This document shows, one piece after another, positions 7,177 through 12,383 of a DNA stretch of 24,589 nt. The notes under the pieces were generated by a model, which saw only the letters and a list, made by a program, of their open reading frames with translations, was not told the origin of the DNA and searched no databases. A program made the position numbers and the translations under genes. Position 1 is the first letter of the stretch, and each line of letters starts with the position of its first letter. Where the stretch lies: positions 1 to 24,589 of the IMG/VR virus record IMGVR_UViG_3300035698_001059. One strand, given 5' to 3'. Source of the stretch: a virus.

Positions 7177-7220
7177 ACCGAACATAATTCGGGTGTAATT
7201 AATTAGCAAAAAAAAAGAAA

Positions 7221-8114
7221 ATGGCTATTCAAAAAGAAATTTGGACAAAAGACATTCAAGATGTTTTATTTCAAGGTTTAGAATTTACGGGGCGCGCGCT
7301 GAATCACAACGCGTATATCAACGGAAAAACGGTTCACGTTCCACAAGCGGGGGCGAATCCGACGATCGTTGTTGACAGATCATCATTTCCCGCGACAATC
7401 GGTCAACGTACCGACACAACAAGGGATTATTCGATGAAATCATTGACAACCGATCCGATTTTAGTGACGAATGTTGATGAGTTACAAACGGAATATGACA
7501 AAAGAAAGTCAGTTCTTTCAGCTCATACGAACGTTTTAACAGAACGCGCGGGACTTGAAATCGTTAACGGTTGGGCGGGAACAGTCGCGAACAAGGTGGC
7601 GACATCGGGATCGACTGACGCGCTAGCACTAGCACCGTCCGCCACGGGAACAAGAAAGGCATTATTAATGAAGGACATTCGAGCGTGTGCGAAATTAATG
7701 GACAAACAAAACATCCCGATGAATGGTAGAATGTTGATTTTACCGTCTGACATGTATTACCAATTATTTGATGACGCGGACGCGACGAAAAGGGACGCAA
7801 TGAACGCGAATCCGTTGTTGACGGGTGTGATTGACAAAATTTTCGGATTCGACATTTATTCGATGGGGGTTGTCAACAGATTGACGACTGGTTTAGAGTT
7901 AAGAACGGTAACGCACGCGGGTGCGGCGACTGACAATTTCGCGGGAATCGCGTGTCACGCTGATCATGTCGCGAGGGCGTTAGGTTCGATTAATGTTTTC
8001 GCCGAAGCTGAAAAGGCTGATTACTATGGCGGCGTAATGTCGGCTGAAGTGATGATCGGATCAGCACCGATTAGAACAAGCGAAGCGGGCGTTATCACTT
8101 TGCACCAAGTTTAG
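7221..8114 (+). CDS. Major capsid protein
   Basis: 297 aa. It is placed directly after the protease-scaffold and preceded by a very A-rich leader (aaaaaaaaagaaa) fit for high expression. Visible segments typical of HK97-fold coat proteins include an early beta region VHVPQAGANPTIVVDRSSFP (about 38-57), a long helix around TEYDKRKSVLSAHTNVLTER, the segment MNGRMLILPSDMYYQLFDD, and a late LTGVIDKIFGFDIYSM. It lacks a cleavable delta domain, which is consistent with scaffold being on the protease gene. Identity is from context and pattern. Confidence 0.8.
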   Translation: MAIQKEIWTKDIQDVLFQGLEFTGRALNHNAYINGKTVHVPQAGANPTIVVDRSSFPATIGQRTDTTRDYSMKSLTTDPILVTNVDELQTEYDKRKSVLSAHTNVLTERAGLEIVNGWAGTVANKVATSGSTDALALAPSATGTRKALLMKDIRACAKLMDKQNIPMNGRMLILPSDMYYQLFDDADATKRDAMNANPLLTGVIDKIFGFDIYSMGVVNRLTTGLELRTVTHAGAATDNFAGIACHADHVARALGSINVFAEAEKADYYGGVMSAEVMIGSAPIRTSEAGVITLHQV

Positions 8115-8398: not shown

Positions 8399-9586
8399 AT
8401 GGGAACTCCAAAAATATTATTTAATCGCGGCGCGGGCGGTTTAGGGCGCGCGCTAACTTCGAACGATCACATTTCCGCGTTGATGTTTTTCAATGACAAT
8501 TTACCCGCGGGATTCGGGGCGAATGATCGCGACAAAGCGGTTTATTCGTTAGAACAAGCCGAAGCATTAGGGATCGCCGAAGGTTCGGCGAATCACGCGT
8601 TCGAATGGTATCAAATACAACAATTTTTCAACCAAAACCCGAACGGGAAACTTTGGATTTCGATTCAAGTGTTGACGTCAATGACGACAACGTTCACGGA
8701 AATTGACGCGTTGCAAAGAACCGCGGACGGCGAAATTCGTCAGATCGGTATTTGTGACCTTTCGGATTCGTCAGTTGTAAGAATAGGAACAGACAATGTA
8801 CCGACTACGATTCAAACGATTGTCACGGCACTAAAAACGGCGGATATGCCGTTGAACGTGTTGATCGGATTTGATGATTCGGGATTGACTGATTTGACGT
8901 CATACGTTGACGGGGCGGCATTAGATAAAGAAAACGTTTCATGTGTTATCGGGGCGGATTCATCGAATGTTGGTCAAGCGTTGGAAACGGCGTCATCGAA
9001 AAGCGTTCCGACGGTCGGGGCGGTGTTGGGTGTGGTTTCATTTTCCGCGGTCAATGAATCGATCGGGTGGATTGGAAAATTCGACATGGCGAAAGATGCC
9101 GAACTCGCGATCCCGAAATTAACATCGGGCGAACTAGTCAAAAGTATTTCAGTAGCGTCGGAATTATCGTTGAATGACAAGGGATATATATTCCTTAAAA
9201 CACATAGAGGGACGAACGGAACATTCGCCAATTTTGGACGAACTTTCGGTGATCAATCGGGTGATTTTTCCACGATTGAAAACAATCGAACGATGGACAA
9301 GTCGATTCGAAACATTCGAACATTCATGTTGCCGAACTTAAATTCGCCGTTAGTACTTAACGCGGACGGAACATTGACAGATAACACGATCGCGGTTTTC
9401 GAAAATTCGTGTCAACGTGCGTTGGATGGTATGGTTCGCGATGGTGAAATTTCAGCCTATTCGGTGAAAATAGATCCATCACAACCCGTTTTATCAACGT
9501 CGAATCTAGTGATCGCCGTGGCGGTTGTTCCCGTTGGTGTAGCGTCCACGATCACCACGAACATCGGTTTCGCCGTGGCGGTTTAA
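8399..9586 (+). CDS. Contractile tail sheath (DUF2586-type)
   Basis: 395 aa. The overall pattern is that of the DUF2586 sheath found in Bacteroidota Mu-like phages: an N-terminal MGTPKILFNRGAGGLGR, SALMFFNDNLP, a mid-domain with WISIQVL, and the conserved C-terminal half GYIFLKTHRGTNGTF, FGDQSGDFSTIENNRTMDKSIRNIR and LPNLNSPL. The C-terminal strand region (LVIAVAVVPVGVASTI) would form the inter-sheath beta augmentation. It is followed at once by the tube gene. A sheath makes the tail myovirus-type. Confidence 0.85.
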   Translation: MGTPKILFNRGAGGLGRALTSNDHISALMFFNDNLPAGFGANDRDKAVYSLEQAEALGIAEGSANHAFEWYQIQQFFNQNPNGKLWISIQVLTSMTTTFTEIDALQRTADGEIRQIGICDLSDSSVVRIGTDNVPTTIQTIVTALKTADMPLNVLIGFDDSGLTDLTSYVDGAALDKENVSCVIGADSSNVGQALETASSKSVPTVGAVLGVVSFSAVNESIGWIGKFDMAKDAELAIPKLTSGELVKSISVASELSLNDKGYIFLKTHRGTNGTFANFGRTFGDQSGDFSTIENNRTMDKSIRNIRTFMLPNLNSPLVLNADGTLTDNTIAVFENSCQRALDGMVRDGEISAYSVKIDPSQPVLSTSNLVIAVAVVPVGVASTITTNIGFAVAV

Positions 9587-9611: not shown

Positions 9612-10022
9612 ATGATTCCATTAATTAACGGCGAAGCGTATGATTTCGCACAAATACTTGTAAACATCGCGGGCGTTCCTATTGCGTCGGTGACTTCGAT
9701 CGAATACGGCGAAGAACAAGAAAAAAAGAACAACATGGGGGCGGGGCGTCGTCCCGTGTCTAGGGGTCGCGGGACAATACAAGCGTCCGCATCAGTCGAA
9801 ATGTCGATGACAGACATTCAAGCGATTCGAAACGGCGCGCCAAACAGATCGCTGCTATCAATCGCCGCGTTCGACGTTGTTGTCGTTTTCGGGAATCCTC
9901 AGTCGCCAACGGTTCACACGTTGAAAAACGCGGAATTCACGACGGACAAACTTTCGGGATCGTTAGATGATACAGATTTGACGACATCGTTCGATTTGAT
10001 CATTTCGCACATCGAATGGTAA
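9612..10022 (+). CDS. Tail tube protein
   Basis: 136 aa, one gene after the sheath. It is beta-rich, with GEAYDFAQILVNIAGVPIASVTSIEYGEEQEKKNNMGAG-type N-terminus, a central segment with IQASASVEMSMTDIQAIRNG, and a C-terminal FDLIISHIEW. Position and size fit the inner tube protein (Mu gpM-like), which stacks as hexamers inside the sheath. The sheath-tube-chaperone-tape measure order supports it. Confidence 0.75.
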   Translation: MIPLINGEAYDFAQILVNIAGVPIASVTSIEYGEEQEKKNNMGAGRRPVSRGRGTIQASASVEMSMTDIQAIRNGAPNRSLLSIAAFDVVVVFGNPQSPTVHTLKNAEFTTDKLSGSLDDTDLTTSFDLIISHIEW

Positions 10023-10069: not shown

Positions 10070-10396
10070 ATGGCTAAGAAAGTAGAAAAAACCGCGCCCG
10101 AAAAGGACGCGAAAACGGCGATCGAAATCCCCGCGGGGACTGTTTACACGATCGAAGTCGAAGGGAAAAAAGCATATTTAAGAAAACCCGACCGTCACAC
10201 CGTCGAAGCGGCTTTAGGTTATGCGATGCCGATTCAAGGACGTCCGCAATACGTCCGCGCGGGCGAAATCGTTTTGTTGGGTTGTTGGTTAGGCGGTGAC
10301 GAAGAAATCAAAACGGATGATGACCTTTTAGTCCCCGCAGCAATGCAAGCGTTCCAAACAATAAGCAAAACGGCGGCGACTTTAAAAAAAAACTAA
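10070..10396 (+). CDS. Tail assembly chaperone, short (G-like) form
   Basis: 108 aa between tube and tape measure. It contains AYLRKPDRHTVEAAL (about 36-50) and ILLGCWLGGDEEIKTDDDL-type segments (about 64-86), a pattern of tail assembly chaperones in Mu-like Bacteroidota phages. It ends in ACT TTA AAA AAA AAC TAA. This string contains the slippery heptamers T TTA AAA (10381-10387) and A AAA AAC (10387-10393), placed right before the stop. The -1 frame is open into the small reading frame that runs to 10590, giving a predicted 173-aa long form. Confidence 0.8.
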   Translation: MAKKVEKTAPEKDAKTAIEIPAGTVYTIEVEGKKAYLRKPDRHTVEAALGYAMPIQGRPQYVRAGEIVLLGCWLGGDEEIKTDDDLLVPAAMQAFQTISKTAATLKKN

Positions 10397-10590
10397 GTGA
10401 TCACCGCTTAAACGCAAAAAACGGATCAGCGGAAATCACCAAAATGAATTCGCTGATCCGTTTTTATTTTCATATTGATCCGCGAACGTTAGATGATGAC
10501 GAATTTTCGCGGACGTGGGGCGAATTACAATTTGCGATTGATTATCATCGAAAAAATGTTGTTGGATTAGTCGAAAACGTTAAAAAATAA
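10387..10590 (+). CDS. Tail assembly chaperone -1 frameshift extension (T-like)
   Basis: In the -1 frame from the slippery run there is no stop until TAA 10588-10590. The extension adds 67 residues: KKLSDHRLNAKNGSAEITK, then MNSLIRFYFHIDPRTLDD, DEFSRTWGELQFAIDYHRK and NVVGLVENVKK. Fusion would give residues 1-106 of the short form plus these. An ATG at 10444 in the same frame could allow a 48-aa free product. The long form would bind the tape measure protein, whose gene follows 8 nt later, as lambda gpGT and related proteins do. It was too short to be noticed by simple size filters. Confidence 0.7.
   Translation, partial: KKLSDHRLNAKNGSAEITKMNSLIRFYFHIDPRTLDDDEFSRTWGELQFAIDYHRKNVVGLVENVKK
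10417..10465 (+). promoter_or_regulatory. Perfect 15-bp hairpin inside the chaperone extension
   Basis: aaaaacggatcagcg (10417-10431) is the exact reverse complement of cgctgatccgttttt (10451-10465), with a 19-nt loop that contains the ATG at 10444. The right arm runs into TTTTTATTTT. It could stimulate the frameshift, although it begins 23 nt after the slippery site, farther than usual. It could also act as an intrinsic attenuator that lowers tape measure transcription, or occlude the internal ATG. Confidence 0.8.
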
Positions 10591-10598
10591 CTCTAAGA

Positions 10599-12383
10599 AT
10601 GGCACAAACTGAGGAATTTATAATAAAATTAAAGGATCAATTTTCGTCAAAACTTCGCGACGCGGATGACGCTTTGGATGACACGCGTGATTCGGCGGAC
10701 GATTTAAATTCATCTTTCGATAAAATGAAATCGGTCGCGGGTGCGGCGGTTGCGGCTTTAGGTTTACGCGAATTTATACAAGCGACGGGCGAATTCTCAA
10801 AGATGCGCGCGGCGGTCATGGCGTACACGGGCGAATCGGGAAAAGCGGGTGACGATCTGATCACCACCGCGAACGCTATTTCCGCGTCTTATGGCGGTGA
10901 AACGACTGAAATTCTAAGGGCGGCGAACGCTATGACGAAACAAGTCGGGGGATCAATGGAATCGAACATGAACTTAATCGTTTCGGGGTTTCAAAAGGGC
11001 GCGAACGCGAACGGCGAATTTATTAATCAGCTGATCGAATATCCCGCGTTCATGAAGGAAGCGGGTTTGTCGGCGTCGCAATCAATCGCGTTGATCACCC
11101 AAGCGTCAAAGGATGGAATCTATGACGACAAAGCGTTCGATTCGGTCAAAGAAATGACGCTTTCGTTGACGGAAATGACAACAACCCAACGGGACGCGAT
11201 CAACAACATCGGAATCGATGCGGGCGCGTTGTTGGCGGACATGAACACGGGGGCGATGTCACCGTTTCAAGCGATGCAGAAAATTGTCGGAGTTATGGAC
11301 GATTTTGACATTTCCGCACAAAAAACAATCGTCGCGGACATTTTCAAAGGTGCGGGCGAAGATAGTGGACTGGCGTTCATTAAATCGTTGGAAACGATTG
11401 ATCTTGAATTGGAAAACTTAGAGGGGACGGGAAACGCTTATTCGGACGGATTGTTCAAGATGAACACTATGTTCGAAGGTTTGAAAACGACGGTTTTGTC
11501 GGCAGTTTTGCCCGCGATGGGGGGGTTGATGACATTCATCGCCGAAAATAAACCTTTACTTTTAGGATTAGCGGCGGCGGTGGGCGTGATGGCTGCGGTG
11601 ATGGGCGTGATGACGATTCAAACGTGGCTATTAAATACGGCATTATTTGCGAATCCGATTGTTTTGGTTGGCGTTGCGATCGCCGCGTTGATCGGGTTGG
11701 TTGTTTACGCCTACAATGAATTCGAAACGTTCCGCGGGATCATGGACGGGATCGGAAAAGTGATCGGCTACGTCGCGGGGTTGATTTGGGACGCGTTGGT
11801 CGGGGCGTTCAACATGATCAAAACGGTCATTTCGTCCGTGATTGATTGGTTTATTCAATTCGCGCCAATGATCAAAAAATATATGTTGATGGCTTTGGGT
11901 TTTGTTATAAAATTAAATCCGATTTATTGGTTGGTGCAAGCGATAAAAAAGATTTTTCCTAAATTATACGCGACGGTCATGGATAAATTCAACGATGTTT
12001 TCGGTTGGTTGATTAAGAAATGGAACAAAATGAAAAAGTTTTTCGGAATGGATGTCAGCGTGAACGCGGACATTTCAACGGATGACAAACTGAAAGATGA
12101 TCCCGCGGGCGATGGTTCGGAATTAGTAGTTCCAACGGGCGGCGGGACGTTGGGAATAAACACCAACCCGTCATCAACGGCGGCGGGATCATCGAACATC
12201 GGGTCGGGTGTCAGTAGCGTTTCGAATTCCGCCCCGAAAACGTTCAATATCAACATTGATTCCTTAATTTCATCTTTTAGCATTAACACCGAAAACGTGG
12301 AAACGTCAACACAAAGAATCCGCGACATGGTATTGGAAACACTATTGTCCGCGGTTAACGACGTACAAACGGCGATTGATTAA
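10599..12383 (+). CDS. Tape measure protein
   Basis: 594 aa, the longest gene in the window, and directly after the chaperone genes. The N-terminus is a charged coiled-coil-like stretch (KLRDADDALDDTRDSADDL). Residues 50-300 resemble the TMP core domain (MRAAVMAYTGESGKAGDDLI, IFKGAGEDSGLAFI). Then come hydrophobic segments at about 318-371 and 387-445, typical of tape measures that insert into the inner membrane on ejection. The C-terminal part (490-550) is Gly/Ser/Thr-rich. The protein sets tail length; this one predicts a fairly short tail. Confidence 0.88.
   Translation: MAQTEEFIIKLKDQFSSKLRDADDALDDTRDSADDLNSSFDKMKSVAGAAVAALGLREFIQATGEFSKMRAAVMAYTGESGKAGDDLITTANAISASYGGETTEILRAANAMTKQVGGSMESNMNLIVSGFQKGANANGEFINQLIEYPAFMKEAGLSASQSIALITQASKDGIYDDKAFDSVKEMTLSLTEMTTTQRDAINNIGIDAGALLADMNTGAMSPFQAMQKIVGVMDDFDISAQKTIVADIFKGAGEDSGLAFIKSLETIDLELENLEGTGNAYSDGLFKMNTMFEGLKTTVLSAVLPAMGGLMTFIAENKPLLLGLAAAVGVMAAVMGVMTIQTWLLNTALFANPIVLVGVAIAALIGLVVYAYNEFETFRGIMDGIGKVIGYVAGLIWDALVGAFNMIKTVISSVIDWFIQFAPMIKKYMLMALGFVIKLNPIYWLVQAIKKIFPKLYATVMDKFNDVFGWLIKKWNKMKKFFGMDVSVNADISTDDKLKDDPAGDGSELVVPTGGGTLGINTNPSSTAAGSSNIGSGVSSVSNSAPKTFNINIDSLISSFSINTENVETSTQRIRDMVLETLLSAVNDVQTAID

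Follow-up and report, generated by a model that had tools for sequence, protein, structure and literature searches.

The conserved G/GT class of Xu, Hendrix and Duda (2004), as set out in PMC5009743, is among the closest described counterparts of the locus analysed here, and the same source gives the lambda scheme for the roles of G and GT. For an HK97-like chaperone cluster, a frameshift efficiency of 6–7% has been reported (PMC3711429). Both the heptamer X_XXZ_ZZN and the tetramer Z_ZZN are recognised as −1 motifs (PMC4066793). In E. coli, the tetramers that shift most readily include A_AAG, the best of them, and U_UUU/C; A6G and A6A are the commonest IS heptamers, and A6C (A_AAA_AAC) is a weak heptamer of low efficiency (PMC4066793). 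The G/GT kind of frameshift is already known. In the literature searched, which covered few subscription papers, we found no report of it for Winoviridae-like phages, nor any account of a frameshift for Winoviridae, Hankyphage or Bacteroides phages.

The window, which is the whole 24.6-kb virus record IMGVR_UViG_3300035698_001059 (24,589 nt), carries a Mu-type portal and F-like genes, a DUF2586 sheath gene, a gene in the tube position, the genes G and T, a tape measure gene and baseplate genes (Table 1). G is a short gene with an overlapping −1 ORF, T, and the pair is located between the sheath and tube genes and the tape measure gene. This arrangement and the sequence comparisons presented below indicate that the locus is very probably a lambda-type G/GT −1 frameshift of a contractile-tail, Winoviridae-like, Mu-headed phage. 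In Mu itself the shift is reported as −2, unlike the −1 shift proposed here. G falls into phrog_19076, a PHROG entry without assigned function, and its homologues occur in Flavobacterium phages of Winoviridae and in prophages across Bacteroidota. Named Winoviridae members have homologues of both G and T in an identical tail gene order, and the window has sheath and Mu-type portal families; these genes are the basis for calling the phage Winoviridae-like. A direct repeat, TCGCCGTGGCGGTT, is present at 9513–9526 and 9570–9583, 57 nt apart, close to the end of the sheath gene.

Table 1 Features of the G/T locus and its neighbours in the window
Feature	Position	Strand	Basis
Tail sheath gene	8399–9586	+	DUF2586 (E 3e-34); PHROG tail sheath
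Probable tail tube gene	9612–10022	+	PHROG tail protein (E 8e-12; head-protein PHROG matches too); position
Gene G, putative tail assembly chaperone, 108 aa + stop	10070–10396	+	ORF; phrog_19076 (E 2e-15); fold; gene order
−1 slippery heptamer A_AAA_AAA, A-site codon AAA 10388–10390, most likely shift site	10384–10390	+	Codon position conserved in relatives
Overlapping heptamer A_AAA_AAC, alternative shift site	10387–10393	+	Last base C or T within the clade
T extension, −1 frame, 65–66 codons + stop, predicted two-helix domain	10391–10590	+	161 of 162 junctions; AF2 model
Zero-frame stop TAA of G, one codon past the shift site	10394–10396	+	Stop placement relative to the slip codon equal in heptamer and tetramer classes
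Small hairpin UAAGUG-AUCAC-CGCUUA, directly 3' of the shift site	10394–10410	+	Predicted; weak evidence
17-bp hairpin, arms 10417–10433 and 10449–10465	10417–10465	+	Fold z; compensatory changes
Tail tape measure gene	10599–12383	+	Directly 3' of T; PhageMin_Tail (E 7e-10); several tape measure PHROGs

We utilized AF2 to predict the structure of G, and the model reached a pLDDT of 85. The best solved match to the model was 3fgx (Z 6.6), which was also retrieved by sequence profile (E 0.0018), and the HK97 tail assembly chaperone 2ob9 matched weakly (Z 3.2, rmsd 4.2, 72 residues aligned). Against BFVD, G gave weak matches that included several annotated tail assembly chaperones (best E 0.035), and Foldseek of G against the PDB returned no match at E below 0.1. 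The predicted fold, weakly matched as it is, and the gene order would fit a tail assembly chaperone. In L051 (FPSV-S1) and L052 (pippi8-1), the alignment suggests that G has a further copy of its domain at the N-terminus.

Gene G ends in ACT TTA AAA AAA AAC TAA (10379–10396), with an A9 run at 10384–10392. The −1 frame (CTA AGT GAT ... at 10393) is open up to a TAA at 10588–10590 and contains an ATG at 10444. A sequence-only reading of this DNA had described this gene end as holding two overlapping heptamers, followed by a −1 frame open to 10590, and re-reading of the letters confirmed the sequence, its coordinates and the open frame. The length of 173 aa that it gave for the fusion is borne out by arithmetic for either heptamer (107 + 66 or 108 + 65 aa), with residue 108 being K if A_AAA_AAA slips and N if A_AAA_AAC slips, and the −1 shift by which it would be made is supported by conservation in relatives. 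Taken alone, the slippery motif is unremarkable and not above chance. The window genes hold 92 in-frame X_XXY_YYZ heptamers, of which 21 are A_AAA_AAN, and two A9 runs against about 4.8 expected. ORF length is no discriminator, as many non-gene ORFs in the window reach the length of T. Since the motif alone is within chance, the case for a frameshift rests on conserved position, frame and RNA fold in relatives. The second A9 run of the window (7208–7216) lies just 5' of ATG 7221 and is perhaps the A-rich leader of the gene at 7221–8114.

We analyzed the conservation of the junction by iterating G and T profiles over 249 loci. Both genes were found in 242 of these, corresponding to 162 distinct G/T junctions, and dereplication at 85% identity left 130 relatives. 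T was in the −1 frame relative to G in 161 of the 162 junctions. The lone exception, L220, is in +1, perhaps through an indel introduced during MAG assembly. In 119 of 130 relatives we identified a recognised −1 motif, with the last but one sense codon of G in the A site, and in the great majority the G stop lies one codon past this conserved A-site codon. Seventy-five relatives carry the heptamer NNA AAA AA(A/G), i.e., A_AAA_AAN. In 44 others the heptamer is gone and Z_ZZN stands at the equivalent codon (37 A_AAG, 3 A_AAA, 1 A_AAC and 3 T_TTT), CTG GTA AAG CTN TAG being an example with A_AAG; the remaining 11 show no obvious motif of either class at the expected codon. Relatives that keep both frames without the slippery string thus do exist, but all 44 of those in the tetramer class have Z_ZZN instead, and the −1 reading stands. 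Well-supported branches of the G+T tree force at least six changes for the tetramer class, and parsimony counts 10. A Bacteroidales clade (L231, L090, L114, L127 and L229) has the junction CTG GAG GAA TTG/TTA stop, with neither heptamer nor Z_ZZN; T is still in the −1 frame there, and its frame opens 73–223 nt upstream of the stop.

The comparison also bears on which bases slip in the window. Two heptamers, T TTA AAA and A AAA AAC, had been singled out from the letters; both are present, but T TTA AAA is not conserved, reading G TTA in L054 and C TTA in L056, the nearest relatives. What relatives share is A_AAA_AA(A/G), with its last base at 10390; this site precedes A AAA AAC by one codon. 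Because T TTA AAA is altered in the nearest relatives, A_AAA_AAA is favoured over it, and the shift in the window would most likely occur on A_AAA_AAA ending at 10390 rather than on T TTA AAA or A AAA AAC. Upstream of the shift site, SD-like GGAGG/AGGAG was found in 25 of 130 relatives, compared with 11.7 expected from synonymous codon choice. This enrichment is odd because Bacteroidota hardly use SD sequences for initiation. The SD-like sequence mostly keeps one spacing, 12 nt ahead of the A-site codon (e.g., L011, L041 and L008), and none was found upstream of the window's own shift site.

A9 runs are within the length range of known polymerase slippage. RNA polymerase might therefore add an A in the run at the end of G, and the resulting A10 mRNA would encode the fusion without a ribosomal shift. 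The run has nine A residues in the window, L054 and L056. Its length varies, however, with A8 in the close relative L057 and A6 in 41 of the 75 relatives that have the heptamer, and the 44 tetramer-class relatives have either just three or four A or a T run. Selection for downstream RNA structure, described below, is not expected under polymerase slippage either. We consider it highly improbable that polymerase slippage explains the fusion in place of ribosomal −1 shifting, to which it could add in the window clade.

AF2 predicted T with a pLDDT of 85 as two helices (residues 14–26 and 35–64). Matches of T in BFVD were weak and included a 42-aa protein of phage lotta8-1, a member of the same phage group, and a Pfam search of G and T gave no convincing match. 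T could in principle be a separate small gene of 48 aa starting at ATG 10444, as in the annotation of Flavobacterium phage pippi8-1, where a CDS of that kind is called gp39. The in-frame ATG is present in the window, L054 and L056, and selection on the T protein is tighter past the ATG (pN/pS 0.12–0.32) than before it (0.37–0.59). In L057, however, whose T frame is 60% identical, this codon is ATC. Between the G stop and the T core helix, the start of which was set for these counts with a simple motif criterion, 101 of 130 relatives lack an ATG and 75 lack any ATG, GTG or TTG. Moreover, T is always in the −1 frame, barring the one junction noted above, with the shift motif at its upstream edge, and ATG 10444 lies in the loop of the 17-bp hairpin. 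An independent start at ATG 10444 is hardly credible in view of these counts, and the reading of T as the second part of a fusion stands.

We then compared the folding of the first 99 nt of T with that of synonymous-codon shuffles, which keep the protein, so that z measures fold beyond coding need. The mean z over the 130 loci was −2.29; 56% of loci were below −2 and none was above +2. Control regions gave −0.62/−0.64 in G, −0.18 in later T and −0.90/−0.46/−0.30 in the tape measure gene, and early T differed from G in a paired Wilcoxon test (p 6e-13). These values show that predicted RNA structure in the first 99 nt of T exceeds the protein-coding requirement. The excess of pairing starts at position 7 after the A-site codon, and positions 4–6 are less paired than expected. 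Stimulators of −1 shifting usually follow a spacer of ~6 nt (5–8 nt), which the pairing onset in relatives approximately fits, and the downstream stem is clearest in the tetramer class.

An outer helix of tetramer-class members (e.g., AGGCTGCCG with CGACAGCCT, ~75 nt apart) showed 43 compensatory cells, compared with 15.1 when shuffled and at most 19 when slid. RNAalifold returned no consensus structure for a 30-sequence tetramer-class alignment, probably owing to bulges that put the helix in different registers from one sequence to the next; compensatory cells were instead counted on a named structure. When each sequence was tested singly against synonymous shuffles, the outer helix by itself reached significance in only 14 of 30, and the claim of structure is therefore based on covariation and on z for the whole region. 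An Rfam search gave no match. Taken together, the comparisons indicate that the slip site, the −1 frame and the predicted early-T RNA fold are all under selection. The idea that the tetramer class offsets its weaker motif by stronger structure was not supported (Mann-Whitney p 0.30).

The slippery run and −1 frame of the sequence-only reading held up, but it had missed the 17-bp hairpin of the window, whose 3' arm encodes NSLIRF. The z of this hairpin was −7.4 against dinucleotide shuffles and −3.8 to −3.9 against synonymous-codon shuffles over the region, and uninterrupted stems of 11 to 18 bp with the 3' arm over the LIRF codons occur in ~17 of 130 relatives. We assessed covariation in 4 window-clade and 9 second-clade members aligned on the pairing register. 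With the window-type hairpin, 174 of 182 cells were paired and 15 were compensatory, compared with 69–92 paired and 1–4 compensatory when slid. Inside the window clade we saw nothing but wobble changes and mismatches; the covariation signal therefore stems from comparison with, and within, the second clade. L073, L076 and L086 have perfect 12–17 bp hairpins at the equivalent T position with other arm sequences.

The stem starts 26 nt past A_AAA_AAA and 23 nt past AAC, compared with the usual spacer of ~6 nt. By standard ribosome geometry, a stem 23–26 nt away should be out of reach for a ribosome paused at the shift site; therefore, either a nearer element spans this distance or the hairpin serves some other purpose. 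The candidate bridging element would be either the small hairpin directly 3' of the shift site, which is not conserved (it was not seen in L054, L056 or L057), or an outer stem as in L057. The 17-bp hairpin may stimulate shifting, although by the same geometry it lies too far away for contact. Conceivably, the near-perfect 11–18 bp hairpin that the window clade and the second clade conserve ~24–26 nt downstream of the shift site influences frameshifting, or the balance of G and tape measure protein, in a manner unlike standard stimulators (spacer 5–8 nt), an idea that we regard as rather improbable. If true, the coding sequence of T would contain a distance-set RNA element.

The hairpin may instead do another job, as an intrinsic terminator or attenuator, or by stabilising mRNA, between G, whose product is abundant, and the tape measure gene, whose product is scarcer. 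We consider such a job possible though unlikely. Its distance from the shift site is unlike that of a classical stimulator, and the stem is followed by UUUUUAUUUU. However, L054 (TTTCTATTTA) and L056 (TTTCTACTTA) keep the stem but have an interrupted U tract, so a terminator role is disfavoured; the loop measures 15–19 nt, and a terminator scan gave no call there. Relatives, moreover, put structure at the usual ~6 nt spacing. Another job of this kind would touch the hairpin only and leave the frameshift unaffected.

Under ribosomal −1 shifting, most ribosomes would stop at the TAA of G and release G. A minority, with two tRNA-Lys on A_AAA_AAA, would slip back one base and read T to its end, producing the 173-aa G–T fusion, and RNA folding downstream, within T, would tune the shift. 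By the lambda analogy, binding of the tape measure protein would fall to G and recruitment of the tail tube protein to the T part. We infer the shifting itself, its efficiency and, by that analogy, the roles of G and GT.

The locus shares with lambda G/GT a short gene before the tape measure gene, a −1 extension and a slip near the stop of the first gene; in both, two products come from one start and a second start codon is unnecessary, which for the window is a prediction. It differs from lambda in belonging to another sequence family (phrog_19076), in its all-A heptamer or A_AAG tetramer, in its strong lineage-specific downstream RNA structure, and in its contractile tail and Bacteroidota hosts. 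The comparison would extend the G/GT frameshift, by evidence beyond the motif, to a large family of Bacteroidota phages and prophages, in which early T appears to co-encode an RNA fold with a protein domain.

The Winoviridae phages FPSV-S1 and pippi8-1 have the same order as the window (sheath, tube-position gene, G, T and tape measure) and homologous G/T pairs with A_AAA_AAG sites. They differ from the window in their second G-domain copy and in a T0 structure z near zero or positive (L051 and L095). No frameshift is annotated in either record; FPSV-S1 omits T, and pippi8-1 calls T a separate hypothetical protein. Existing annotation in this Bacteroidota phage family thus drops T or makes it a separate gene. 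The family also offers a natural series in which one gene pair uses an A heptamer or a bare tetramer, with at least six switches, and through which the rules of −1 shifting in Bacteroidota become testable. The IS3-family and dnaX −1 cassettes studied in E. coli (Sharma et al. 2014, PMC4066793) use the same X_XXZ_ZZN and Z_ZZN classes with the same favoured members, and they share a stem ~6 nt downstream (tetramer class) and an SD-like AGGAG/GGAGG upstream in a minority. In contrast to those cassettes, the role of the present one would be tail assembly, the window clade has no upstream SD-like sequence, and its hairpin is placed 23–26 nt away.
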